A stretch of 38,734 bases of DNA, taken from the NCBI GenBank assembly GCA_022823465.1, contig JAJEHX010000043.1, positions 1-38,734 of the forward strand, given 5' to 3'. The notes below the pieces were generated by a model. That model worked only from the letters and a program-made list of their open reading frames with translations. It was not told where the DNA came from and ran no database searches. The position numbers and the translations under genes are program-made. Positions 3,681 to 15,887 of this stretch are shown here, in pieces (within the stretch, counting starts at the first letter, position 1; every line of letters starts with the position of its first letter). The stretch is from Candidatus Latescibacterota bacterium. Lineage in GTDB: Bacteria; JAAXHH01.

Positions 3681-4448
3681 ATGCGCATCGTTCAGCTTTC
3701 CGATCCCCACATCGTACCGGCAGACCGGCAGCCCGTACACGGCCAGGACACGCTTGGACGGTTGCGGGCCGCCGTAGATGCCGTGAACCGGTTGATCCCC
3801 GCACCCGATCTAGTCGTCATGACGGGCGACCAGAGCAACGACGGATCCGAAGATTCCTACCGTGCCTTAAAAGAAGTCCTTTCCCTCCTTCGTTTTCCCT
3901 GCCACATGGCCATGGGCAATCACGATTACAGACCGGTCTTCCGCCGGATCATGCTGGAAGAGTCCGACGCGGATTCGGCTCCGTATTACTACACCCTGAA
4001 CCGGACCGGCCACCGCGTTATCGTGCTCGATACCCAGGAAGAAGGGGAGGTTGCGGGATGGCTTGACGATGCGCAACTGAACTGGCTGGAACAGGAGTTG
4101 TCTTCCGGTCTTCCTTCCGTCATATGCATGCATCACCCGCCGGTGCCCGTGGGCGTGGCCTGGATGGATGAACTGATCCTCCAGGAAAGCGACCGGTTTC
4201 TCAGGATATGCGAAGCCCGGACCGCCTTGCGATTGATCCTTTGCGGTCACGTGCACCACGATTTTCGTATGAATCTGAAACATGTAACGGTCCTGACCGC
4301 GCCGAGCGTGGGCCTGCAGTTCAGGAAGGACCCCGTAATAAACGCGGACGGCACCCGCGTTATAGCTACCGACGAACCGGCCGCGTTCCGAATCGTCGAT
4401 CTCGACGGGTCGGACTGGAAAACCTCGATACACCGACTCACCTCATAG
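3681..4448 (+). CDS. cpdA: CpdA/Icc-type metallophosphoesterase (3',5'-cyclic nucleotide phosphodiesterase family)
   Basis: A 255-residue calcineurin-like phosphoesterase. All five metal-site blocks are present: D8-x-H10, GDQSNDG around D50, GNHD at 79-82, the HHPP histidine block and the C-terminal GHVHHD. The GDxSxDG and GNHD spellings and the length match CpdA (cAMP phosphodiesterase) and related class III cyclic nucleotide phosphodiesterases. It starts three bases after pepA and ends 23 bases before the diaphorase gene. No signal peptide is seen, so it should act in the cytoplasm. Cyclic AMP is the best guess, but phospholipid or phosphodiester substrates are known in the wider family. 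Confidence 0.85.
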   Translation: MRIVQLSDPHIVPADRQPVHGQDTLGRLRAAVDAVNRLIPAPDLVVMTGDQSNDGSEDSYRALKEVLSLLRFPCHMAMGNHDYRPVFRRIMLEESDADSAPYYYTLNRTGHRVIVLDTQEEGEVAGWLDDAQLNWLEQELSSGLPSVICMHHPPVPVGVAWMDELILQESDRFLRICEARTALRLILCGHVHHDFRMNLKHVTVLTAPSVGLQFRKDPVINADGTRVIATDEPAAFRIVDLDGSDWKTSIHRLTS

Positions 4449-4471
4449 CCGAACCTTACCGGACCAGGAAA

Positions 4472-6148
4472 ATGCTGATTGATGATTTGAGGGAGATACA
4501 GGCGCGTCACGGATATCTGCCCGATGAGGAGCTGAAATCCCTGTCGGAACGCAAGGGCATTCCGCTTTACGAAGCCCACGGCGTGGCCAGTTTCTATCCT
4601 CATTTCAGGCTGAAACCTCCTCCTGACGCCACGCTTCGGGTCTGTACCGATCTCTCCTGTCATCTCCACGGGGCCTGCGACGTGCTCGAGACCCTGCGGG
4701 AAACCGTGGATTACGCAGGACTGGACAAGTGGGAGGTGAGCAGGACGTCATGCCTCGGACAATGCGACGGCGCCCCGGCTGTATCGATCAACGACCGCAG
4801 CTACCGGAGCATGACGGTGGACCGCCTCGCCAGATTCGTCGCCCGTCTTGCCGACAATGGAAAGATCAGCCGCCAACCTTTCAGGCGCCGGACCAACCCG
4901 GGGCGCATCGATCCCTATGATCATCCCCTGGCCGCCGAGTCCCTGAAACAGTGGATTTCTGGCGGAGATGCGGACCGGCTCGTGCAGACCATCAAGGATA
5001 GCGGCCTGCGCGGCATGGGCGGAGCCGGATTCCCGGCCGGCGTCAAGTGGGATCTGGTCAGAAAAACGGAATCCGAGGTCAAGTACGCGATCTGCAACGC
5101 GGATGAGAGCGAACCCGGCACGTTTAAGGATCGCGAGATCCTGTACCACTACCCCCATCTCGTCATTGAGGGCCTGATCCTGGGCGGGCTCGCCGTCGGC
5201 GCGAACCGGGGATACCTGTTTCTCCGGCACGAATACGACCGGGAGCGGGAAGTGCTTGAGAAGACGATCAGGGCGTTCTATTCCGCCGGATGCCTGGGCG
5301 ACGGCATTTTGAATTCGGAACGATCGTTTCACCTGGAGATCTTCGACAGCCCCGGCGGATACATCTGCGGCGAGGAAACGGCCCTGCTTGAAGCGATGGA
5401 AGGAAAGCGGGCCGAACCCAGGAACAAGCCGCCGTTTCCAGGCACGCACGGTCTGCATGGCAGGCCCACGCTCATCAATAACGTCGAAACCTTCGCCTGG
5501 GTGCCTGCCATTCTGCAGCGCGGCGCCGACTGGTTCCGGTCCCAGGGAACAAACGGCGCTTCGGGGCGCAAGTACATTGCCCTCAGCGGCCACGTCGAAA
5601 GACCGGGGGTCTATGAAATCCCGCTCGGGACACGGGTATGCGATCTCATCCAGGACTACGGCGGAGGCGTTTCCGGTGGGCGTGAGCTCAAAGCCTTCGC
5701 TCCGGGTGGCACTTCATCGGGATTCCTGCCCGCTTCCATGGCGGAGATCCCCCTTGATTTCAAACCACTTGCAGATGCCGGATCCATGCTGGGATCCGGT
5801 GCGGTCATCGTCCTGGCCGAGGGGACGGATATGGCGGACCTGGCGTGTAACGCGGTAACCTTCTTCCGCAACGAGTCTTGCGGGAAGTGCGTGCCCTGTC
5901 GAACGGGCACGGAGCACCTGGTGCGTATGCTTGGCGCCGTGCTCGAAGGGAACGGCCGGTCCGATACGCTGGAACCCGTGGCGGACGTCGCAGAAGCGAT
6001 GGAACTCACCTCCATCTGCGGCCTCGGCCAGGCGGCGGCGCTGCCGCTTACCTCCGCGCTCAGGTATTTTCCGGACGAATTCGAGACCCCACGCCGGAAT
6101 GCGGCGGACCGCCGGGGGGAGGAAGCCGGAGGCGGTTCGGATGGGTAG
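4472..6148 (+). CDS. Fused NuoE-NuoF-type diaphorase subunit of an NAD-dependent formate dehydrogenase
   Basis: One 558-residue chain joins a thioredoxin-like [2Fe-2S] NuoE/FdsG domain (residues 1 to about 125) to a full NuoF/FdsB domain. The NuoE cluster cysteines are 58, 63, 94 and 98. The NuoF part begins near 150 and shows the flavin/NADH loop GMGGAGFPAGVKW (181-193), the NADESEPGTFKD block, GGYICGEET, an SLBB region, and the 4Fe-4S ligands C470, C473, C476 and C516. It should pass electrons between NAD and the catalytic subunit encoded next. The reading frame extends upstream into cpdA, but the NuoE homology begins around the ATG at 4472, so I start there; an AGGAA lies very close before it, and a slightly earlier non-ATG start cannot be excluded. 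Its stop overlaps the next gene by eight bases. Confidence 0.9.
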   Translation: MLIDDLREIQARHGYLPDEELKSLSERKGIPLYEAHGVASFYPHFRLKPPPDATLRVCTDLSCHLHGACDVLETLRETVDYAGLDKWEVSRTSCLGQCDGAPAVSINDRSYRSMTVDRLARFVARLADNGKISRQPFRRRTNPGRIDPYDHPLAAESLKQWISGGDADRLVQTIKDSGLRGMGGAGFPAGVKWDLVRKTESEVKYAICNADESEPGTFKDREILYHYPHLVIEGLILGGLAVGANRGYLFLRHEYDREREVLEKTIRAFYSAGCLGDGILNSERSFHLEIFDSPGGYICGEETALLEAMEGKRAEPRNKPPFPGTHGLHGRPTLINNVETFAWVPAILQRGADWFRSQGTNGASGRKYIALSGHVERPGVYEIPLGTRVCDLIQDYGGGVSGGRELKAFAPGGTSSGFLPASMAEIPLDFKPLADAGSMLGSGAVIVLAEGTDMADLACNAVTFFRNESCGKCVPCRTGTEHLVRMLGAVLEGNGRSDTLEPVADVAEAMELTSICGLGQAAALPLTSALRYFPDEFETPRRNAADRRGEEAGGGSDG

Positions 6149-8957
6149 CGGGAACGTAACACTGACAATTGACGGCAGCCGTGTCACCGCGCCGGAAGGG
6201 ACCACGATCTGGGAAGCGGCCCAGTCAGCAGGCATCGATATCCCCACCCTGTGCCACGATCCCAAACTGCACCCTGTCGCCGTATGCCGCGTGTGCGCGG
6301 TCGACGTCGAAAACTCCCGTACGCTGCCCGCGGCCTGCATCCGCCAGGCGGAAGAAGGCATGGTGGTGCACACGGACACGGAGCGGGTACGTCGCGCGCG
6401 CCGCACCCTGGTGGAACTCCTCCAGGCCGGACAACCCCCTGAAGAGAAACGGCGCAAACCGTTGGCGCAGGACGAACTGGCGCAGCTGGGCGGACAACTG
6501 CGGTCGGACCCCGCGCGGTATGCGTCAACCTGTTCGAACCCGGTAGCGCAGCAGGACCTGTCCTCACCCGTCATCGCGGTGGACCACGACGCCTGCATTC
6601 TGTGCGACCGATGTATCCGCGCCTGCGACGACGTCCAGGTAAACGACGTCATCGGCCGTGCCGGCAAGGGGTGCGATACCCGCATCGCCTTCGATAACGA
6701 CCTGCCCATGGGTAAATCGTCATGCGTCGCCTGCGGCGAGTGCGTGGCCGCGTGCCCTACCGGCGCGCTGACGGACCTCCCCCTGGTGAGCGCGGTCCGA
6801 GGGACCGCGGAAACCCCACCGGAGAAAGTCGATTCGGTTTGTGCCTATTGCGGCGTGGGTTGCGGCATCACGTACCATGTGCAGGACGCCAGGATCACAA
6901 GGGTGACGGGGCGTGAAGATACCCACACCGAAGGCCGGCTGTGCGTCAAGGGCAGATACGGCTACGACTATACCCACCATCCGCAGCGGCTCCACAAACC
7001 GCTCATCAGAAGGGAAGACGCCTATCCGAAGCGGCCGCTTTCGGCGGACTTCCAGGATTACCGGGAGTTCCGGCGCTCGCTCCGGTCGCCGGAATGGAAC
7101 GACCGTATCAGGGAAGTATTCCGTGAGGCCGAGTGGGACGAGGCGCTGGATCTGGCGGCCCGCCGGTTGCTGGAAATCAAGCAAAAGAAGGGACCTGGCG
7201 CGCTGGCCGGCTTCGGGTCGGCCAAGGTGACCAATGAAGAAGCCTACCTCTTCCAGAAGCTGATCCGCGTGGCCTTCGGTACCAATAACGTGGACCACTG
7301 CACGCGCCTCTGCCACGCGTCCTCCGTGGCGGCCCTCACGGAGGCCATCGGGAGCGGGGCGGTCTCAAACGCCTTTCAGGAGGTCCTTGAAACCGACGTC
7401 ATCTTCGTGATCGGTTCCAATACGGAAGACAACCATCCCGTGGCCGCTTCCTACATGAAACAGGCCGTTGACCGCGGTGCCAGGATGATTGTCCTCGATC
7501 CCCGGCGGCCGACCATCGCCGACCACGCCACCCGGTACGTACGGTTCAAGCCGGGTACCGACATAGCGCTGCTCAACGGAATGATGCACGTTATTCTGCG
7601 CGAAGGGCTGCAGGACGATGGCTTCATCGCACAGAGGACGGAAGGCTTCGACGCGCTCGAACCGGCCCTGCGGCCCTATACGCCCGAACTGGCTTCGAAG
7701 ATCACCGGCGTACCCGCTTCGGTGATCGAAGAAATCGCCGTCGAGTACGGCCGCGCACGGCGCGCGATGGTTTTCTGGGGCATGGGGATCAGCCAGCATG
7801 TCAACGGGACGGACAATGCCCGTGCCCTGATCTCCCTTTGTCTCATGACCGGCAACATCGGACGTCCAGGTACGGGCCTGCACCCGCTGCGGGGGCAGAA
7901 CAACGTCCAGGGCGCTTCCGACGTGGGGCTGATTCCGAGATTCTATCCGGGCTACCAGCCCGCGGATGATCCGGCCGTGCGGAAGCGTTTCGAGGAGGCC
8001 TGGCGTACCCCGCTCGACCCCCAGTCGGGCCTGACTGTCGTGGAAATCATGCACGGCGCCCTCGACGGCGGCATCGAGGGTATGTTCATGATGGGCGAGA
8101 ACCCCTTCCTTTCGGATCCGAACATGAACAAGGTTCGCAAAGCCCTTCAGAACCTGTCATTCCTTGTCGTACAGGACATCTTCCTGACGGAGACTGCCGA
8201 GTTCGCGGACGTGATCCTGCCCGCTTCCACCGCGGCGGAGAAGCGGGGCACCTACGTCAATACGAACCGCATGGTGCAGATCGGAAGAAAGGCGCTCGAT
8301 CCCCCCGGCGAAGCGCGCCTGGACGGAGACATCCTGGTCGACCTGGCCAACCGGATGCTTCGCATGGAGCAGGGCGAGCACGATATATGCTGGGACTACG
8401 ACGGGCCGGAAGCGGTATGGGAGGAAATCATCTCGCTGACGCCGATTTTCAAGGGGATCACCTACGAAGCGATGGAAAGGGAAACCGTGGTATGGCCCCT
8501 GGGCGAGCCGGTACTCTTCACCGACTCGTTTCCCCTCGGCCGAGGCGGATTCACGCCCGTATCCTTCGCGCCGCCCGATGAGCTGCCTGACGAGGAATAT
8601 CCCTTTGTCCTGAACACCGGCCGCGTCCTGCAGCACTGGCACACGGGCACCATGACGCGCCGCGCCCGCGCCCTCGACGCCATTTCCCCGGAGCCCTTCG
8701 TGGAGCTGACGCCCCGGGACCTGGCCAACCTGGGCGTCCAAGACGGTGACCTTGTGGTCGTCTCCTCCCGCCGCGGCGCCATCACCCTGAAGTCGAAGTC
8801 CTCCACCCGTGTGTCCGACGGCAACGTCTTCATCCCCTTCCATTTCAAGGAAGCCGCCGCCAATGTCCTGACCAACGACGCCCTCGACCCCGACGGCAAG
8901 ATCCCCGAATTCAAGTACTGCGCGGTGGCTGTGGAAAGAGCGTTATCAAGCGGGTAG
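6141..8957 (+). CDS. fdsA: Formate dehydrogenase catalytic (alpha) subunit, molybdopterin/tungstopterin enzyme, cysteine type
   Basis: A 938-residue FdsA/FdhF-type subunit that would oxidise formate to CO2, or reduce CO2, and pass electrons to the fused diaphorase. In order: a plant-type [2Fe-2S] domain (C38, C49, C52, C66), a double 4Fe-4S ferredoxin domain (C152, C155, C158, C162; C195, C198, C201, C205), the pterin-enzyme 4Fe-4S site (C234, C237, C241, C268), the bis-MGD catalytic domain and the C-terminal dinucleotide-binding domain. The metal ligand is Cys391 in RLCHASS, coded TGC, where E. coli FdhF has selenocysteine. The His-Cys cluster motif usual between the 2Fe-2S and ferredoxin domains is not visible in residues 80-145. 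The ATG at 6141 has GGAGG eight bases upstream. No fdhD or fdsD chaperone follows. Confidence 0.88.
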   Translation: MGSGNVTLTIDGSRVTAPEGTTIWEAAQSAGIDIPTLCHDPKLHPVAVCRVCAVDVENSRTLPAACIRQAEEGMVVHTDTERVRRARRTLVELLQAGQPPEEKRRKPLAQDELAQLGGQLRSDPARYASTCSNPVAQQDLSSPVIAVDHDACILCDRCIRACDDVQVNDVIGRAGKGCDTRIAFDNDLPMGKSSCVACGECVAACPTGALTDLPLVSAVRGTAETPPEKVDSVCAYCGVGCGITYHVQDARITRVTGREDTHTEGRLCVKGRYGYDYTHHPQRLHKPLIRREDAYPKRPLSADFQDYREFRRSLRSPEWNDRIREVFREAEWDEALDLAARRLLEIKQKKGPGALAGFGSAKVTNEEAYLFQKLIRVAFGTNNVDHCTRLCHASSVAALTEAIGSGAVSNAFQEVLETDVIFVIGSNTEDNHPVAASYMKQAVDRGARMIVLDPRRPTIADHATRYVRFKPGTDIALLNGMMHVILREGLQDDGFIAQRTEGFDALEPALRPYTPELASKITGVPASVIEEIAVEYGRARRAMVFWGMGISQHVNGTDNARALISLCLMTGNIGRPGTGLHPLRGQNNVQGASDVGLIPRFYPGYQPADDPAVRKRFEEAWRTPLDPQSGLTVVEIMHGALDGGIEGMFMMGENPFLSDPNMNKVRKALQNLSFLVVQDIFLTETAEFADVILPASTAAEKRGTYVNTNRMVQIGRKALDPPGEARLDGDILVDLANRMLRMEQGEHDICWDYDGPEAVWEEIISLTPIFKGITYEAMERETVVWPLGEPVLFTDSFPLGRGGFTPVSFAPPDELPDEEYPFVLNTGRVLQHWHTGTMTRRARALDAISPEPFVELTPRDLANLGVQDGDLVVVSSRRGAITLKSKSSTRVSDGNVFIPFHFKEAAANVLTNDALDPDGKIPEFKYCAVAVERALSSG

Positions 8958-9060: not shown

Positions 9061-9087
9061 TGAAACTCTTACGCTCAGGTATTCGTA
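9061..9087 (+). promoter_or_regulatory. Candidate ECF-sigma autoregulatory promoter
   Basis: TGAAAC (9061-9066) and CGTA (9084-9087) are separated by 17 bases. They match the two halves of a sigma-W/ECF-type promoter (TGAAAC, about 16 bases, CGTA) and sit immediately before an ECF sigma gene. ECF operons commonly transcribe themselves, so this is a likely autoregulatory site. Transcription would begin near 9094, almost at the ATG at 9096, implying a very short or absent leader. The motif is seen; its use is inferred. Confidence 0.5.
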
Positions 9088-9095
9088 GTAGTGGT

Positions 9096-9629
9096 ATGAA
9101 CTCGACCGCAGGCAGCCCGCACACGCCAGATCAGAATTTCGACAAGACCCACCGAACGCATTACCGCCGGATTCTCGCACTCTGCCGGTATCTCTTGAAG
9201 TCTGTCGATGATGCCGAGGACGCGGCGCAGGAAGTCTTCTTCCGCGCATACCAGAAGCGTTCGACGGTCGACAGTTCGAAGTCCTATCTGAACTGGCTCT
9301 TAAAAATAGCCACCAATCATTGTCTTGACCAGTTACGGCGCCGGAGCAGCGAGGCCAGGATCTATGAATCCATCGATCCCGAACGGATAGGTCCTTCCCG
9401 GGTATCCGAGAACACACTCGATTTTCTGGTCCGGGCAGAAAAGGGCGAACGAGTCCGATCCGCGATACAGTTGCTCTCCGACAAGTATCGTGTACCGCTC
9501 GTACTGGCCTACTATAACGAGTTCACCTATGAAGAAATCGGCGAAGCGCTCGAACTGAACAGGAACACGGTAGCGACGCTGATTTTACGCGCCAAGCAAC
9601 GATTGCGAGAGGAGCTGAAGGGGCTATGA
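9096..9629 (+). CDS. RNA polymerase sigma factor, ECF subfamily
   Basis: A 177-residue ECF (sigma-70 group 4) factor with the two expected domains. Sigma region 2 runs from about residue 18 to 85 (DDAEDAAQEVFFRAYQ), and region 4 occupies the last 60 residues (LPLVLAYY-like helix, then TYEEIGEALELNRNTVATLILRA). It should direct RNA polymerase to a small envelope- or stress-related regulon. A GTG at 9060 would give 12 more residues, but it lies within the candidate ECF promoter, so the ATG at 9096 is preferred even though no ribosome binding site is visible. Its stop shares an ATGA with the following anti-sigma gene, the usual coupling for such pairs. I cannot assign a numbered ECF group by eye. 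Confidence 0.92.
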   Translation: MNSTAGSPHTPDQNFDKTHRTHYRRILALCRYLLKSVDDAEDAAQEVFFRAYQKRSTVDSSKSYLNWLLKIATNHCLDQLRRRSSEARIYESIDPERIGPSRVSENTLDFLVRAEKGERVRSAIQLLSDKYRVPLVLAYYNEFTYEEIGEALELNRNTVATLILRAKQRLREELKGL

Positions 9630-11272
9630 CGGACGAAAAGGTGCGCAGGGAGGATTGTCCATCTGAACTCAGTAGCTCGATGTACGCCGATGGTGAGTTG
9701 TCCGGGGCCGAAGCGCTCGAGTTCGAAGATCATCTGAACCGCTGCCCGCGGTGCCGGGACCTTGTGGGTGCGTTAAAGATGGAGCGGGATGCGCTCGTCG
9801 GGGTATTGGGAAAGACCGAAGCTTTCCTGGCCGAAACGAATCCGGCCCATGCGCCTTCTCCAATCCATGCCTTGATATTGCTGGGACTGGTCACGGCATT
9901 CGCGGCGCTGTTGAGGTTGAATTTTGACTCGATTATGGGCCTGGAGCTACCCTGGGGCTTTGAGTGGCTCAGCCCGTTGCGCGTCACCGGACAGTTGTCT
10001 CTGATATTCAGCTCGGGGTTTTACTTCATCCAGGAAGGGGGTTCGATCATGGAATCGCTGATCAGCTACGCTGGTGTCGCTGCGTTAGCCATTATGCTGC
10101 TGTGTACTGTATTCGTACTGGTACGTAGGTTACCAGGGGCTTCGAAGCTAATTGCATGCCTGGCCCTTTCGGCGGGGTTGTCCGCTCCGGCGGAGGCCAT
10201 CGAAACACGCTCCACCGAAAATGTCTCCATTGAGGCAGACGAGATCATTGACGACACGCTCATTGTCTTCGGCCGCACGGCCAGAATCGACGGCGTGGTG
10301 ACCGGAGACCTGATCGTCTTCGCCCGGTCGATCGAAATCGCGGGTTCGGTCCATGGAGATGTTTTTTCTTTTGGAAGGAACGTCGAAATTGAGGGTGAGG
10401 TGGGCGGCGGGATCGCAGGGTTCGGACAGGTGATTCGCATCGGACATACCGTCGGTCAGAGCATCTATGGGTTCGGCCAGTCGATTCTCTCCAGACGGGA
10501 CGCTTCGATCGGGGGAGATTTCTTTGCATTCGCAGAAGATATCAACGTGGGCGGGTCGGTCGACCGCAACGTGATGGCGTTTGGCAACACCCTTACAGTA
10601 ACGGGCGAGGTGAAGAGGGACGTTACTTTCTCGGGTAACCATACGGCCGTTCATTCGTCCGCGTCGATCGGTGGAAACCTCGACGTCGATCTGCCGACCG
10701 GGAAAAACCTGCAATTGGATTCCACCTCGTCCGTAGCCGGCGAAACGATCGTCGAGTTGTGGGAAACGGATCAGGACGAGGAGGATACGCTGTCGGTCTG
10801 GACGTTCGTGCCCATGGCCCTGTGGCTGGCCGCGGCGTTCATATCGGGCATGCTGCTACTCTGGGCGCTTCCGGCGCTGCGGCGCATGCCGCTGGACGAC
10901 CTGCGCGCCATGCTACAGTCCGCGGGGGTCGGATTCCTGGTCCTCATCGCGATGCCGGTTGCGGCGGTCCTGCTCTGCGTGACGCTTATCGGCCTCCCGG
11001 CCGGCCTCGTGATGGGTGCCGTCTGGGCGCTGGGCCTGTATGCGTCCAAGATCGCCGTGGCGCACTTCCTGGGCAGCGCATTGCTGAGGCCGAAAGGACA
11101 GGATCTGGGCGCAATGGCGCTGCCGCTGCTCGTCGGACTGTTGCTGGTGCTGATCGCGGTAAGCCTTCCCTATGTCGGCTGGGTCATCAATCTGCTGCTG
11201 GTCATCATCGGCCTGGGGGCGATTGGACTGGTCCTTTTCCGGTCCGCCAGGAGCCGTATAGCCCCGGCCTGA
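9626..11272 (+). CDS. Anti-sigma factor (zinc-finger) fused to a bactofilin-like beta-helix and membrane domain
   Basis: A 548-residue mosaic protein. Residues 1-50 are a zf-HC2 anti-sigma domain with the H-x3-C-x2-C core HLNRCPRC, which would hold the adjacent ECF factor inactive. Hydrophobic spans follow near 80-100 and 146-168, then a third near 173-190 ending in APAEA, which looks like an internal signal peptide. Residues about 195-375 are short repeated beta-strand units rich in G, I, V and F (DGVVTGDLIVF, AGSVHGDVFSF and similar), as in polymer-forming bactofilin-type domains. The last 170 residues form about four or five more membrane spans. Positive-inside reasoning puts the zinc finger in the cytoplasm and the beta-helix in the periplasm. 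Start and coupling are firm (ATGA overlap). That the beta-helix senses envelope state is an inference. Confidence 0.85.
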   Translation: MTDEKVRREDCPSELSSSMYADGELSGAEALEFEDHLNRCPRCRDLVGALKMERDALVGVLGKTEAFLAETNPAHAPSPIHALILLGLVTAFAALLRLNFDSIMGLELPWGFEWLSPLRVTGQLSLIFSSGFYFIQEGGSIMESLISYAGVAALAIMLLCTVFVLVRRLPGASKLIACLALSAGLSAPAEAIETRSTENVSIEADEIIDDTLIVFGRTARIDGVVTGDLIVFARSIEIAGSVHGDVFSFGRNVEIEGEVGGGIAGFGQVIRIGHTVGQSIYGFGQSILSRRDASIGGDFFAFAEDINVGGSVDRNVMAFGNTLTVTGEVKRDVTFSGNHTAVHSSASIGGNLDVDLPTGKNLQLDSTSSVAGETIVELWETDQDEEDTLSVWTFVPMALWLAAAFISGMLLLWALPALRRMPLDDLRAMLQSAGVGFLVLIAMPVAAVLLCVTLIGLPAGLVMGAVWALGLYASKIAVAHFLGSALLRPKGQDLGAMALPLLVGLLLVLIAVSLPYVGWVINLLLVIIGLGAIGLVLFRSARSRIAPA

Positions 11273-11284
11273 TGCGCCGATTTC

Positions 11285-14071
11285 CTAGTTCACCAGCGAC
11301 GCCAGTCCGGTCGGCGAGTCTTCCCCGACGCCGAACTCGTGGGTGTCCCCGGCCTGCGTCGCTAATCCGGTAAGCGGATCCAGCGTGTACAGCCGGGCCG
11401 TCCATCCGCCGGCCATGTACAGCCTGCCCTGATGCGACGTCAACCCCGTGGGCAGGTCCTCGCCCACGCCGAATTCCACGGCGCTGCCCACGGGCGCCGC
11501 GACTCCCGTGGACTCGTCTACCCTGTAGAGCCTGGCGGAGTTGTAGCTGACCATGTACAGTTCGCCTTCGTGGGAGGCCAGGCCGAAGGGCTGGTATTCC
11601 CCGACGCCGAACTCCACGGCGTCGCCGACCGCGGCGGCTTCCCCGGTCCCCGTGTCCAGCGCGTAGAGCATGACGTTCATCCCGCCCACCATGTACAATG
11701 TGCCGTCGTGCGAAGTCAACCCCATGGGCTGGGATTCGCCCACGCCGAACTCGACGGCGCTGCCGACCCGTGTGGCCGCACCGGACATCGGATCCAGCGT
11801 GTAGAGGGCCGAGTTCCAGCCGCCGACCATGTACAACACGCCTTCATGCAGGGCCAGTCCAGTGGGCCGGTACTCGCCCACGCCGAACCGCGTTTCGTCA
11901 CCCACCGGCCGGGCCTCCCCGGTCTCCGGATTGAGCATGTAGAGCCGATCGGTACCCTCTCCGACCATGACGAGCCCGGACATGAAACCGGGGTCGTCGC
12001 AGGTCGATCCCTCGGTTTCGTCGATTTGAGCTATCCAATCGAGGAAGGACATTTCCCTCGGCAGGCACAGCCCGTCGTTGCCCTGGAACAGAAACTGCTC
12101 AAGCTCCGTAAGTTCCACAAAGGAAACGGGTATCATGCCCGTAAGCAGGTTGTCGTGGATATGCATGCTCTTGAGCCTGGCGAGCCGGCCCAGTTCCCCG
12201 GGTACGGCTCCCGTCAACTGGTTCCTGTCCAGGTGGAGGTATTCAAGGTTGTGCAGATCACCCAGCGAAGCCGGTATGGGGCCCGAAAGATTATTGACGT
12301 GAAGGTACAGCACGAAAAGACCGGTCATCCGGCCCAGTTCATCCGGTATGGGGCCGGTCAGGGCATTGTCGTTGAGATACATGACTTCCACTTCAGCCAG
12401 TTGCCCGAGATCCGGGGGAATCTGTCCGGTTAACTGGTTATTGGAAAGGGCCAGAGACTCAAGCTTGTCGAGCTGTCCCAATTCCCGGGGGATCGGGCCG
12501 GTCAACGCGTTGAAGTGGAGCCACAGGTATTGGAGGTTTGCAAGCCGGCCCAGTTCCGAAGGTATGGGCCCCGACAGGTCGTTGGCGTAAAGGCTGAGCA
12601 CGGCCAGATCGGGCAGATCTCCGAGAACCGCCGGGATGGGACCGGAAAGCTGGTTCCGATCCAGGTGCAGGGTTTCCAGATCGGACAGTGCACCGAGTTC
12701 GACGGGAATCGGTCCTGTCAGTTGATTCGTGTCGAGGTCCAGATGTTCCAGAAGGCCGAGTCGGCCGAGTTCGGCGGGTATGGTCCCGGTCAGTCCGTTG
12801 CGCCAGAGATTGAGCATGCGCAGGTTCGACAGGTCGCCCAGTTCCGGCGGGATCGTTCCGGTCAACTGATTGTTGTCCAGGTGCAGCCGTTCCAGTTTGG
12901 ACAGGCGGGCCAGCTCGATGGGAATCGGTCCCGACAACCGGTTGAAATGAAGGTCCAGGACGGTGAGGGCGGTCAATCCGCCGAGTTCTCGTGGTATGGC
13001 CCCCGATATGCCGTTCAGTCCGAGGTCCAGGTGTTCGAGCCGCGTCAGCAATGCCAGTTCGGCCGGAATCGGTCCTGAAAGACCGTTTCTGTCCAGGTCG
13101 AGGATCCTCAAGTCCTCGAGTTCCGACAGTACCGCGGGAACAGCGCCCGACAATTCGTTATTGCCGAGCCTGAGTTCCCGCAGAAGATGCAGATGGACGA
13201 TATCCGAGGGGATCGGGCCGGCCAGCTTGTTGCCCTGGAGATCGAGCCGGATTACACGGCCGTTGGCATCGGTGGTCACGCCGTGCCAGTCGCTGAGCGG
13301 TTCGTCGCTCAACCAGTTGGTTCCTTCCTCCCAGCCCGGACCGTTCGTCGCGTGGTAGAAACCGGCGAGCGTGGTACGATCGGTAATCACAATCTCCACC
13401 CTGACCGTCACGTTTGCCGACGCTTCGCCGGATGTGGCCGTGATCACCGAAGTGCCGTTGCCTTGGGCTGTTACCAGTCCGCCGTCGCTCACGCTGGCGA
13501 CCGTGGTATCGGCGCTCGACCAATGTACGGCGGCTCCTTCGATGGCCTTGCCGTTCTCGTCCACGATCGAGGCGTTCAACTGTGCGGTCTCTCCTTCATC
13601 GGTGAACGTGACGATGGCTGGCGTCACCACGATACTGCCGGCCGCCTGGGCCACGGTTATAGCCGCAACGGCCTGTTTCTGTCCCGTGGTCGCCCGGATT
13701 TCCGCGGTTCCGTTCCGGACTGCCGTGACAATCCCTCCGCTACTCACCGTGGCCACGCCGGGGTTCGTGCTCGACCAGGTGAAGTCGGCGCCCGTCAGGG
13801 TCTGTCCGTTACCGTCCTGCAACTGTGCGTCGATCTGTACGGTTTGACCGATGGCGGTGAGTTTAGCGGAAGCGGGTGAAACAACGACACGGTCGGGACC
13901 GGTCGGACCGGTCGGATTATCCTTCCCACACGCGGTCATTCCGAACAAGAAGCAGGAAGCGACGATCCAGATCAGTGATCGCGCGGCTGTACACGTGCTC
14001 GAACAGATTCGGAGCGCGTCAGACGAACGCGGGTGGATAACCGTCGGGGTGGACGTGAACTTGGCTGGCAT
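11285..14071 (-). CDS. Large surface lipoprotein: two Ig-like (BIG2) domains, plant-type leucine-rich repeats, propeller-like repeats
   Basis: A 928-residue predicted lipoprotein. The signal segment runs to the lipobox GMTAC with lipidated Cys48, followed by a flexible GKDNPTGPTGP linker. Two BIG2 Ig-like domains occupy roughly 60-140 and 145-226. A cap precedes about 17 leucine-rich repeats of 24 residues (about 273-680) of the LxxLxLxxNxLSGPIPxELG type common in plant receptors. About five 46-residue repeats with LYxLDPxTG and FGVGExxPTGL signatures fill the C-terminus and may form a beta-propeller. The frame continues upstream, but the ATG at 14071 has AGGAG nine bases away and puts the signal peptide at the N-terminus. 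It lies 76 bases after the sulfatase on the same strand, suggesting co-expression. It is probably adhesive or ligand-binding; the ligand is unknown. Confidence 0.85.
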   Translation of the reverse strand: MPAKFTSTPTVIHPRSSDALRICSSTCTAARSLIWIVASCFLFGMTACGKDNPTGPTGPDRVVVSPASAKLTAIGQTVQIDAQLQDGNGQTLTGADFTWSSTNPGVATVSSGGIVTAVRNGTAEIRATTGQKQAVAAITVAQAAGSIVVTPAIVTFTDEGETAQLNASIVDENGKAIEGAAVHWSSADTTVASVSDGGLVTAQGNGTSVITATSGEASANVTVRVEIVITDRTTLAGFYHATNGPGWEEGTNWLSDEPLSDWHGVTTDANGRVIRLDLQGNKLAGPIPSDIVHLHLLRELRLGNNELSGAVPAVLSELEDLRILDLDRNGLSGPIPAELALLTRLEHLDLGLNGISGAIPRELGGLTALTVLDLHFNRLSGPIPIELARLSKLERLHLDNNQLTGTIPPELGDLSNLRMLNLWRNGLTGTIPAELGRLGLLEHLDLDTNQLTGPIPVELGALSDLETLHLDRNQLSGPIPAVLGDLPDLAVLSLYANDLSGPIPSELGRLANLQYLWLHFNALTGPIPRELGQLDKLESLALSNNQLTGQIPPDLGQLAEVEVMYLNDNALTGPIPDELGRMTGLFVLYLHVNNLSGPIPASLGDLHNLEYLHLDRNQLTGAVPGELGRLARLKSMHIHDNLLTGMIPVSFVELTELEQFLFQGNDGLCLPREMSFLDWIAQIDETEGSTCDDPGFMSGLVMVGEGTDRLYMLNPETGEARPVGDETRFGVGEYRPTGLALHEGVLYMVGGWNSALYTLDPMSGAATRVGSAVEFGVGESQPMGLTSHDGTLYMVGGMNVMLYALDTGTGEAAAVGDAVEFGVGEYQPFGLASHEGELYMVSYNSARLYRVDESTGVAAPVGSAVEFGVGEDLPTGLTSHQGRLYMAGGWTARLYTLDPLTGLATQAGDTHEFGVGEDSPTGLASLVN
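11288..11960 (-). repeat. Five tandem ~138-base coding repeats (propeller-like module)
   Basis: The 3' part of the lipoprotein gene is built of about five tandem units of roughly 46 codons. Each encodes a TRLYTLDPxTG-like strand pair followed by a VEFGVGExxPTGL turn. Similarity is visible at the DNA level, for example in the repeated segment coding for FGVGE. The array could expand or shrink by recombination. Confidence 0.75.
12031..13255 (-). repeat. About seventeen tandem 72-base coding repeats (leucine-rich repeat array)
   Basis: Tandem units of 24 codons encode the plant-type LRR consensus. The GPIPxELG core recurs with strong DNA similarity while the solvent-facing positions vary. The last unit near 12060 deviates (GNDGLCLP) and acts as a C-terminal cap. 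The array is in frame throughout with no interruption. Confidence 0.85.
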
Positions 14072-14147
14072 GTGCGTGCGCTCCTGATTAGAATGCATGT
14101 TTTGGATATGCTTGTGACCGGCGGTGCGTTGATTCACGGGTATGTGT

Positions 14148-15551
14148 TCAGGACGCATCGTAGCCTGCCCAGAAGGCCCCGCCCCACTCGCTGCCGGCAT
14201 CATCCCAATCATCACGCCAGGCAAAGAGTCGGTTCCGCAGGCCGTGCAAACGGTCCCTGTAGGACTCGATTCCGGCCAGATTGTGACATTCCCAGGGGTC
14301 CTGTACCAGGTCGAACAACTGCGTGGTGCGGCGTCCGCCGACCACGTACTCGATCAGCTTGAAGCGTTCGTCCTTCACCATGCGCTGCCACTGCCGGTAC
14401 GCGCCGAACAGCGTATCCCTCGGACGCGCGCCGGGGTCGTCGAATACGGACGCGAGGCTCTTCCCTTCCACGGAATCAGGCGTGTCGAAGCCGATCAGGT
14501 CGCACAGGGTGGGGAAGATGTCGAGCAGATACGCGTAAGCGTTCCGCCGGACACCTCGGGGGATGCCCGGACCGGAGAACACCAGGGGCACGCGAACGCT
14601 GTGTTCGTAAAGGTTCTGCTTTCCAAAAAGTCCATGCTGGCCGACAGCCAGTCCGTTGTCCCCTGCGAAGACCACGATGGTGTCATCCGCCTTTCCGGAT
14701 GCGTCCAGCGCGTCCAGGATCCTTCCCGCCTGGGCGTCGAGATGGGTAATCATCCCGTAGTATTCCGCGATATGGCGCCGCGTCGCGTCCGGGTCGCGGG
14801 GAAAGTCCTCGAGCAATTCGTCCCTTACTTTCAGGTCGCCGTTGTCGAAGGGATGACCACCCATGAAATTGTCCGGGAGCGATATGCTTTTAGGATCATA
14901 CAATGCCAGGTATTCTTCCGGCATGGTCCGCGGGTCGTGAGGCGCCATGAACGAGACGTACATGAAGAAGGGATCGCGTGAGTCAGAAGCGTGCAGCCAT
15001 TCGGCGGCGCAGTCTGCGAAAACCTCGCTGGAATGCCTGCCGGCGTGTACGTGGTCCCCTTTTCGGATATTCAACGCGTTCGTCCTGAAGGCATCAGGGC
15101 ATTGTGGAAGCGTCCCGTCGTACCGGCCTGCCGCGTCGTAGTCGAAGACCGGCACGTTCCAGTGATCGTCCATGCCGCCGAAGAAGATCTCCGCTCCATC
15201 CGAAAAACTGCGGGAGAACGACGAGGGCCCGTTATGCCATTTGCCCGTTCCCCAGGTACAGTAGCCGCGGGACTGCAGGTATTCCCCGATCATCACGTGT
15301 TCCGGGGGAATGTCCGCGCCGGCCCCGTCAAGATGAAACAGGGTCCGCCCCGTGTGCAGCATGGCCCGGCTGGGCATGCAAACCGCCGCCGAGGTACCTC
15401 CGGGTATGTGTGCATGGGTAAACGCGGTACCCCGGGACACCAGCCGGTCCAGCGCCGGCGTTTGCACGCAGGGGTTGCCGAGCGCCCCTATCGTGTCGAA
15501 GCGCTGGTCGTCTGTGAACAGGAACAGGACGTTTGGCGGTTTGCGTGACAA
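14148..15551 (-). CDS. Type I sulfatase (formylglycine-dependent, alkaline-phosphatase fold)
   Basis: A 467-residue arylsulfatase-family enzyme that would hydrolyse a sulfate ester, most likely on a carbohydrate. Seen are the N-terminal metal motif TDDQ, the activation site CMPSR with Cys58 (converted to formylglycine in this family), GTGKWHNG, the PHDP histidine block and the metal-binding GDNG followed by GKQNLYEHSVRVPL. The frame remains open to an ATG at 15680, but that extension has no homology. The TTG at 15551 is preceded by GGGAGG at ribosome-binding distance and yields MSRKPPNVLFLFTDDQ, the usual sulfatase beginning, so TTG is chosen. No signal peptide is seen with this start. The anaerobic or aerobic maturase is not in the window. 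The LRR lipoprotein lies downstream on the same strand. Confidence 0.92.
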   Translation of the reverse strand: MSRKPPNVLFLFTDDQRFDTIGALGNPCVQTPALDRLVSRGTAFTHAHIPGGTSAAVCMPSRAMLHTGRTLFHLDGAGADIPPEHVMIGEYLQSRGYCTWGTGKWHNGPSSFSRSFSDGAEIFFGGMDDHWNVPVFDYDAAGRYDGTLPQCPDAFRTNALNIRKGDHVHAGRHSSEVFADCAAEWLHASDSRDPFFMYVSFMAPHDPRTMPEEYLALYDPKSISLPDNFMGGHPFDNGDLKVRDELLEDFPRDPDATRRHIAEYYGMITHLDAQAGRILDALDASGKADDTIVVFAGDNGLAVGQHGLFGKQNLYEHSVRVPLVFSGPGIPRGVRRNAYAYLLDIFPTLCDLIGFDTPDSVEGKSLASVFDDPGARPRDTLFGAYRQWQRMVKDERFKLIEYVVGGRRTTQLFDLVQDPWECHNLAGIESYRDRLHGLRNRLFAWRDDWDDAGSEWGGAFWAGYDAS

Positions 15552-15887
15552 GATGTTATATCCTCCCTGAAGACATGAGTCCAAAATACCTGGATCCGGG
15601 AATAATGCTTGAGGAAGATGTGATGAATTTATGAGCAGGCGCAGACTCGTCGGGTAATCCGTCAATAAAGCCGGCGCCACCCGGCAAAGTCAAGATACAA
15701 GGCAGTTGACACCAGGCGCGCCAATCGTGGATTGCGCTACCAGCTCCTGGTACACCCCGTTATATTGTACGCTTGCACGGGTTGGAACGGGGCCATGGTT
15801 GAATGAACGTGCTCGCCAGTCTGCCGCCGCGGGTACTCACCAGAAAGCAGGCTGACCGTCAAAATCGTCAAACAATACCAGATTCGT
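15552..15887. other. Divergent intergenic spacer (336 bases) between the sulfatase and the YgjP-type gene
   Basis: No convincing gene was found. On the minus strand the sulfatase ribosome binding site lies at its left edge and a weak promoter candidate sits at 15664-15693. On the plus strand a TATATT (15761-15766) and a TTGACA (15706-15711) occur, but 49 bases separate them, so they do not form one promoter. The bases just before 15888 carry no clear ribosome binding site. Confidence 0.5.
15664..15693 (-). promoter_or_regulatory. Weak candidate promoter for the sulfatase-lipoprotein pair
   Basis: On the minus strand TTGACT (15693-15688) is followed after 18 bases by TTTATT (15669-15664), five and four matches to the sigma-70 boxes. 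Transcription would start near 15657, about 105 bases before the TTG start at 15551. Confidence 0.3.

Follow-up and report, generated by a model that had tools for sequence, protein, structure and literature searches.

Within the window, by which we mean the whole analyzed stretch of 38,734 nucleotides from a Candidatus Latescibacterota bacterium (contig JAJEHX010000043.1), a gene for an ECF sigma factor is directly followed by a gene for a protein that combines a zinc-binding anti-sigma domain, a beta-helix and several membrane spans (Table 1). Both open reading frames lie where an earlier note, made from the sequence alone, had placed them, and the succession of zf-HC2 domain, membrane segment, beta-helix and second membrane segment in one chain that the note had described was recovered by Pfam searches, hydropathy analysis and AlphaFold2 taken together, with the further spans, given there as four or five, numbering five. 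The sigma protein matched Sigma70_r2 (1.8e-15) and Sigma70_r4_2 (1.1e-12), and no other Pfam model scored above its cut-off. Its reading frame stops at 9629 and may start at ATG 9096 or at GTG 9060. The stop codon of the sigma gene and the start codon of the anti-sigma gene overlap in the sequence ATGA (9626-9629), a tight arrangement that is common among sigma/anti-sigma gene pairs. The ECF gene adjoins the fusion gene in the loci of the genus, and together with the overlap this bears out the pairing of the two genes that the note had proposed. Directly upstream of the sigma gene, the forward strand of the window carries open reading frames (4208-8957) that, by the appearance of their sequence alone, encode NADH-binding (NuoE/NuoF-like) and formate-dehydrogenase-like proteins; the aligned relatives have the same coding sequence at this place. 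Downstream, a convergent gene on the reverse strand (11285-14224) lies 13 bases from the end of the fusion gene and encodes a protein of 979 residues in which Big_2 domains are combined with numerous leucine-rich repeats. On the same strand, a sulfatase of the N-sulphoglucosamine sulphohydrolase type is encoded at 14148-15680 (PF00884, 6.9e-48).

Table 1. Features of the sigma/anti-sigma locus, with positions in the window and residue numbers of the fused protein.
Feature	Position	Strand	Basis or remark
Candidate ECF-promoter-like stretch, TGAAACT-N15-TCGTAGT (short form TGAAAC-N17-CGTA)	9061..9089	+	Just before or overlapping the sigma start
ECF sigma factor	9096..9629	+	Pfam Sigma70_r2 and Sigma70_r4_2; kept beside the fusion across the genus
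Fused anti-sigma/beta-helix/multi-span membrane protein, 548 aa	9626..11272	+	Single open frame; ATGA overlap
Zinc-binding anti-sigma domain, residues 11-44, with C11, H36, C40 and C43 (H-x3-C-x2-C plus upstream Cys)	9656..9757	+	zf-HC2
Membrane span 1, residues 80-98	9863..9919	+	Hydropathy 2.16
Predicted periplasmic loop, conserved, residues 99-147 (LPW..EWL.PL..GQ.S..F....YFI)	9920..10066	+	Column entropy
Membrane span 2, residues 148-166	10067..10123	+	Hydropathy 2.55
Relic of a signal peptide, residues 167-191, with a candidate signal peptidase I site behind A191	10124..10198	+	Alignment with separate homologues
Beta-helix, residues about 196-376, 17-residue repeat	10211..10753	+	Periodicity, AlphaFold2, weak Bactofilin match
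C-terminal membrane domain, five predicted spans, residues about 392-540	10799..11245	+	Hydropathy, charges

The zf-HC2 match of the fused protein (1.1e-8; 35.4 bits against a cut-off of 22.2) is clear, and its four zinc ligands are invariant in 12/12 sequences from the genus. Judged from the sequence, this domain would very probably bind the sigma factor encoded next to it. Eight hydrophobic segments were recognized in the chain, namely two spans, one short segment and the five spans of the C-terminal domain. According to the positive-inside rule, the distribution of charges fits a protein that has its N-terminus inside, crosses the membrane three times, exposes the beta-helix outside, crosses the membrane five more times and ends inside. 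Because the beta-helix of separate homologues is directly preceded by a signal peptide, this domain is very probably located outside the inner membrane; the predicted periplasmic position given in the earlier note agrees both with these signal peptides and with the charged loops. The loop between the first two spans is better conserved than the spans on either side (mean column entropy 0.58 versus 0.77 and 1.2). For the C-terminal membrane domain, no matching Pfam model was found, and the full-length AlphaFold2 model placed helices at residues 391-413, 423-455, 459-487, 498-512 and 517-545 with low confidence.

The presence of a beta-helix was supported by two independent kinds of analysis. 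Over residues 196-376, the autocorrelation of hydropathy reached 0.42 at a lag of 17 residues, compared to a maximum of 0.16 ± 0.04 in shuffled sequences, and 0/2000 shuffles were as high. AlphaFold2, which was run with four sequences and modelled the membrane halves at low confidence, produced ladders of strands for residues about 201-330 with block-mean pLDDT values of 82-92 in a model of the C-terminal part and 73-86 in the full-length model. The repeated beta-helix that had been read from the sequence is thus backed by a period beyond chance and by strands of high pLDDT. Foldseek returned weak matches to beta-helical proteins, including proteins of the LpxA type and a bactofilin at rank 36, with no match at E<=0.001 in either of two runs, both of which were spoiled by the low-confidence membrane half. 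As these matches were weak, we do not claim a structural family. The Bactofilin model PF04519 scored 18.9 bits on the fused protein, which is under the cut-off of 27.9, and exceeded the cut-off in some of the separate relatives. The term bactofilin-like used in the note is therefore correct, in line with the beta-helix and the weak profile match, whereas the term bactofilin is not, and assignment of the fused protein to the bactofilins is rejected by the profile score as well as by the topology with eight hydrophobic segments and a predicted location outside. The likeness to bactofilins such as BacA and ThBac consists of the beta-helix core of short repeats and the weak profile match. Canonical bactofilins reside at the cytoplasmic face of the membrane, and the few that have any membrane span carry it at the N-terminus (PMC12448750), whereas in the fused protein a long beta-helix, predicted to lie outside, precedes five spans.

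The fusion was present in 12/12 genomes of one Latescibacterota genus with 58-91% identity and without internal stop codons; in one of these genomes (G006), the sequence breaks off in undetermined bases towards its C-terminal end. The full fusion profile had no match in four genomes from sister genera, and at all loci examined outside the genus, the zinc finger was absent from the chain and frame of the beta-helix protein. According to the earlier note, homologues encoding the two halves as separate genes would point to an assembly or frame artefact. Such separate genes indeed exist in other lineages, which could suggest that two genes were joined by faulty assembly, a frame-shift or annotation. 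However, this explanation is refuted by 12 genomes in which the frame is intact and free of stops, and we assign it a practically negligible probability; the combination of separate halves in other lineages with an intact gene throughout the genus identifies a gene fusion.

The separate homologues also reveal what was fused. The proteins encoded at four loci (L003 and L016-L018) have no zinc finger; at their N-terminus, a signal peptide precedes the same beta-helix and membrane domain. Their signal peptides align onto residues 167-191 of the fused protein, which indicates that the C-terminal half was once an exported protein. In the fusions, the junction still shows an R-R n-region and ends in a conserved P-A-x-A c-region; the hydrophobic core between them spans about 12-15 residues and varies in sequence (entropy 1.07). 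A191 is invariant in 15/15 aligned sequences, and among the fusions position -3 is occupied by Ala, Val or Ser and position -1 always by Ala. The conservation pattern and the alignment with the separate homologues thus define an internal signal peptide with n-, h- and c-regions and an A-x-A motif. Since the signal peptide of the separate homologues starts exactly at the junction and the A-x-A motif was kept, the gene is that of a two-span anti-sigma factor joined to that of a formerly exported beta-helix membrane protein.

Because the junction is a signal peptide that has kept its cleavage motif, a point that the earlier note did not recognize, the chain may mature into two separate proteins. 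Signal peptidase I would cut after A191 to yield a membrane anti-sigma factor with three hydrophobic segments and a separate beta-helix membrane protein, i.e., the same two proteins that are encoded by two genes in other bacteria, and the fusion would only set their ratio or make export of the beta-helix a part of the switch. The retention of all three parts of the signal peptide, in register with the signal peptides of the separate homologues, is consistent with such a cut. However, internal signal peptides behind upstream spans may be cleaved poorly, and small residues in a short membrane anchor could be retained for packing, so that we regard processing into two proteins as conceivable but unlikely. 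A case of comparable internal processing is the cytochrome b/c1 precursor of Bradyrhizobium; among open-license papers, we found nothing that directly describes a precedent for the internal signal peptide.

When 384 diverse genomes were searched with a profile of the C-terminal half, 104 contained matches. The members of this separate-gene family (e.g., L003, L071 and L112), composed of a signal peptide, a beta-helix and five spans, are homologous to residues about 175-548 of the fusion and differ from it by the lack of an anti-sigma zinc finger in the chain. Outside the genus, in loci examined with flanks of some kilobases, an ECF gene was located upstream and on the same strand at 34/51 loci with such beta-helix/membrane genes, and elsewhere at one; the linked genes represent one branch of the family. 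In 12 such genomes, Sigma70_r2 genes occur at a density of approximately 4.2 per Mb, and therefore about 0.4 of the 51 loci would be expected to show this linkage by chance. The observed frequency was about 80 times higher (binomial tail <1e-50), in a sample that includes near relatives, which are not independent, and that was gathered in part with a second profile (A6) derived from ECF-linked proteins; among the loci of the first round alone, the linkage was found in 20/31. In one further phylum, where flanks were short, 24/29 new loci, several of them from one genus, had an ECF gene upstream. The gene between the ECF gene and the beta-helix gene typically encodes a protein of 160-220 amino acids that is often zf-HC2-like and has spans near residues 85-100 and 140-170. 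This layout matches the N-terminal half of the fused protein, and the fusion therefore presents a recurring two-gene arrangement in a single gene. Another type of beta-helix envelope protein next to an ECF gene was noticed at two loci (L093:3165-5447 and L094:3150-4859), where a short beta-helix is followed by an outer-membrane barrel of the Omp85 superfamily (PF01103, 8.3e-6 and 6.8e-8). ECF-linked relatives can also carry extra exported domains at the N-terminus (L078:2990-4720 and L080:3690-5444), with a sugar-binding domain of glycosyl hydrolase family 2 and STN domains. The variation of the N-terminal domains suggests a receptor-like role of these relatives with a variable input module.

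The fused protein itself belongs to another branch of the family. In a tree of the membrane domains, it was placed within a set of 18 proteins (support 99/96), none of the others in this set having an ECF gene nearby, and a single clade of fused and ECF-linked proteins was rejected by the AU test (p-AU 0.0009). With the reservation that membrane domains of this short length yield fragile trees, these results lead us to reject an origin of the fusion by simple joining of the common ECF-linked operon. Near genes of the unlinked branch, no ECF gene was detected at 23 loci with wider flanks (0/23, including L209 without upstream sequence and L070 with only 1.1 kb) or at 28 more loci with short flanks (0/28). 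In the ECF tree, the sigma factors of the fusion formed a long branch of their own without a close tie to the linked ECFs. The beta-helix protein of the fusion thus stands outside the ECF-linked branch; it would resemble that operon type in its working, while descent from it is unsupported. Coupling of such membrane proteins to ECF sigma factors probably arose at least twice, as far as these trees can indicate, and this apparent recurrence argues for a functional fit. In the phylum of G024, the unlinked branch is represented by a separate gene that is nearly universal (116/132 genomes) and usually present in one copy. By eye, a gene similar to the carbon-starvation protein gene CstA was noticed near 13 of the unlinked-branch loci L256-L283; the neighbor genes of this branch gave no clue to its function.

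Taken with modest confidence, our preferred interpretation is that the locus encodes a pair of an ECF sigma factor and a zinc-binding membrane anti-sigma factor, in which the anti-sigma gene is fused to the gene of an exported beta-helix protein and the envelope module senses or scaffolds a signal. The cytoplasmic zf-HC2 domain would keep the sigma factor at the membrane, while the beta-helix and the five-span domain would form the envelope-side part that receives or scaffolds the signal, and the fusion would fix sensor and inhibitor at a one-to-one ratio. A change on the envelope side would then free the sigma factor, probably by proteolysis of the anti-sigma half, as for other membrane anti-sigma factors, or by a conformational change, and the freed sigma factor would probably transcribe its own operon. 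By analogy, we see about an even chance that proteolysis is involved in the release; site-2-type M50 proteases were present in all genus genomes searched and are near-universal across genomes, and their presence is therefore weak support. We lean slightly towards the view that the beta-helix is part of the input and thus goes beyond mere cargo; the beta-helix half may just as well be a scaffold, transporter or effector as a sensor. That it is an envelope polymer whose state is read, as suggested in the earlier note, is one guess among many and an improbable one.

If the beta-helix protein were instead an effector, the sigma factor would mainly drive its own operon, to be shut off by the anti-sigma half once the envelope contains sufficient beta-helix protein, giving a homeostatic loop. 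A fusion of product and inhibitor would suit such feedback, and the promoter-like element at the sigma start was found with 0 mismatches at the same place in the genus genomes. No convincing second copy was detected in these genomes, in two of which isolated matches with one mismatch occurred, and no orthologous second copy exists at that stringency; the copy with one mismatch in the source genome lies inside a coding gene. However, target promoters of a looser type would escape this search, and the element lies in a stretch that could also encode 12 additional residues at the N-terminus of the sigma factor, with variable columns distributed 4/4/7 over the codon positions. Since the element may be coding, its assignment is ambiguous and we claim neither a promoter nor a regulon; the attempt to derive a regulon from the motif was dropped for this reason and for the unconvincing second site. 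Overall, we consider the effector role rather unlikely. A chance fusion, in which the beta-helix half acts independently and shares only its expression with the anti-sigma factor, appears quite improbable. It could be favored by the related separate proteins without a nearby sigma gene at the 23 and 28 loci described above, whereas the retention of the fusion across 58-91% identity and the strong enrichment of ECF genes next to another branch of the family argue against it. More far-reaching than our preferred interpretation, and in our opinion doubtful, is the idea of an export checkpoint encoded by one gene, in which signal peptidase would split the chain of inhibitor and beta-helix at the internal signal peptide so that sigma activity reports both export and processing of the beta-helix half, and in which beta-helix/five-span proteins would constitute a widespread, unrecognized third component of ECF/anti-sigma systems.

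Among known systems, the membrane anti-sigma factors of Class I with a zinc-binding domain (ZAS, zf-HC2), to which the RsiW type belongs, share with the fusion the N-terminal H-x3-C-x2-C motif, the overlap directly after the ECF gene and the anchoring in the membrane. Members of this class commonly carry additional C-terminal domains (survey in PMC7406223); the fusion is distinguished by a C-terminal part that is a large beta-helix and five-span protein with a relic internal signal peptide. The nearest concept is found in the Toastrack/DUF4097 operons, which unite a beta-helical repeat module, multi-span proteins and a linked sigma factor in one operon and were proposed to form a scaffold for membrane stress signaling (PMC11237479). 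In contrast to the beta-helix of the fusion, Toastrack is a different domain and is predicted to be cytoplasmic, and a fusion to a zf-HC2 anti-sigma factor is not described in the sections consulted (PMC11237479). In the literature searched, which comprised a minority of the subscription papers, we found no report of the fusion or of an operon with a beta-helix/five-span protein, and the open-license literature yielded nothing direct on a combination of an anti-sigma factor with a bactofilin or of a bactofilin with an ECF sigma factor. The fusion draws attention to a kind of envelope-linked gene switch that has received little study. The inputs of most ECF/anti-sigma pairs are unknown, and the fusion, together with the 58 loci in other bacteria at which a membrane beta-helix protein of this kind is encoded beside an ECF gene, nominates this protein as a component of such switches in general, which would suggest a possible function for a large family whose membrane half is not covered by Pfam. 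The internal signal peptide additionally offers a way to ask if one gene can yield two interacting proteins. As a separate observation, DUF4097/Toastrack genes (PF13349, 1e-23 to 1e-30) separate the ECF gene from the beta-helix gene at L083:3467-4537, L098:1538-2593, L101:2403-3494 and L190:4483-5535.
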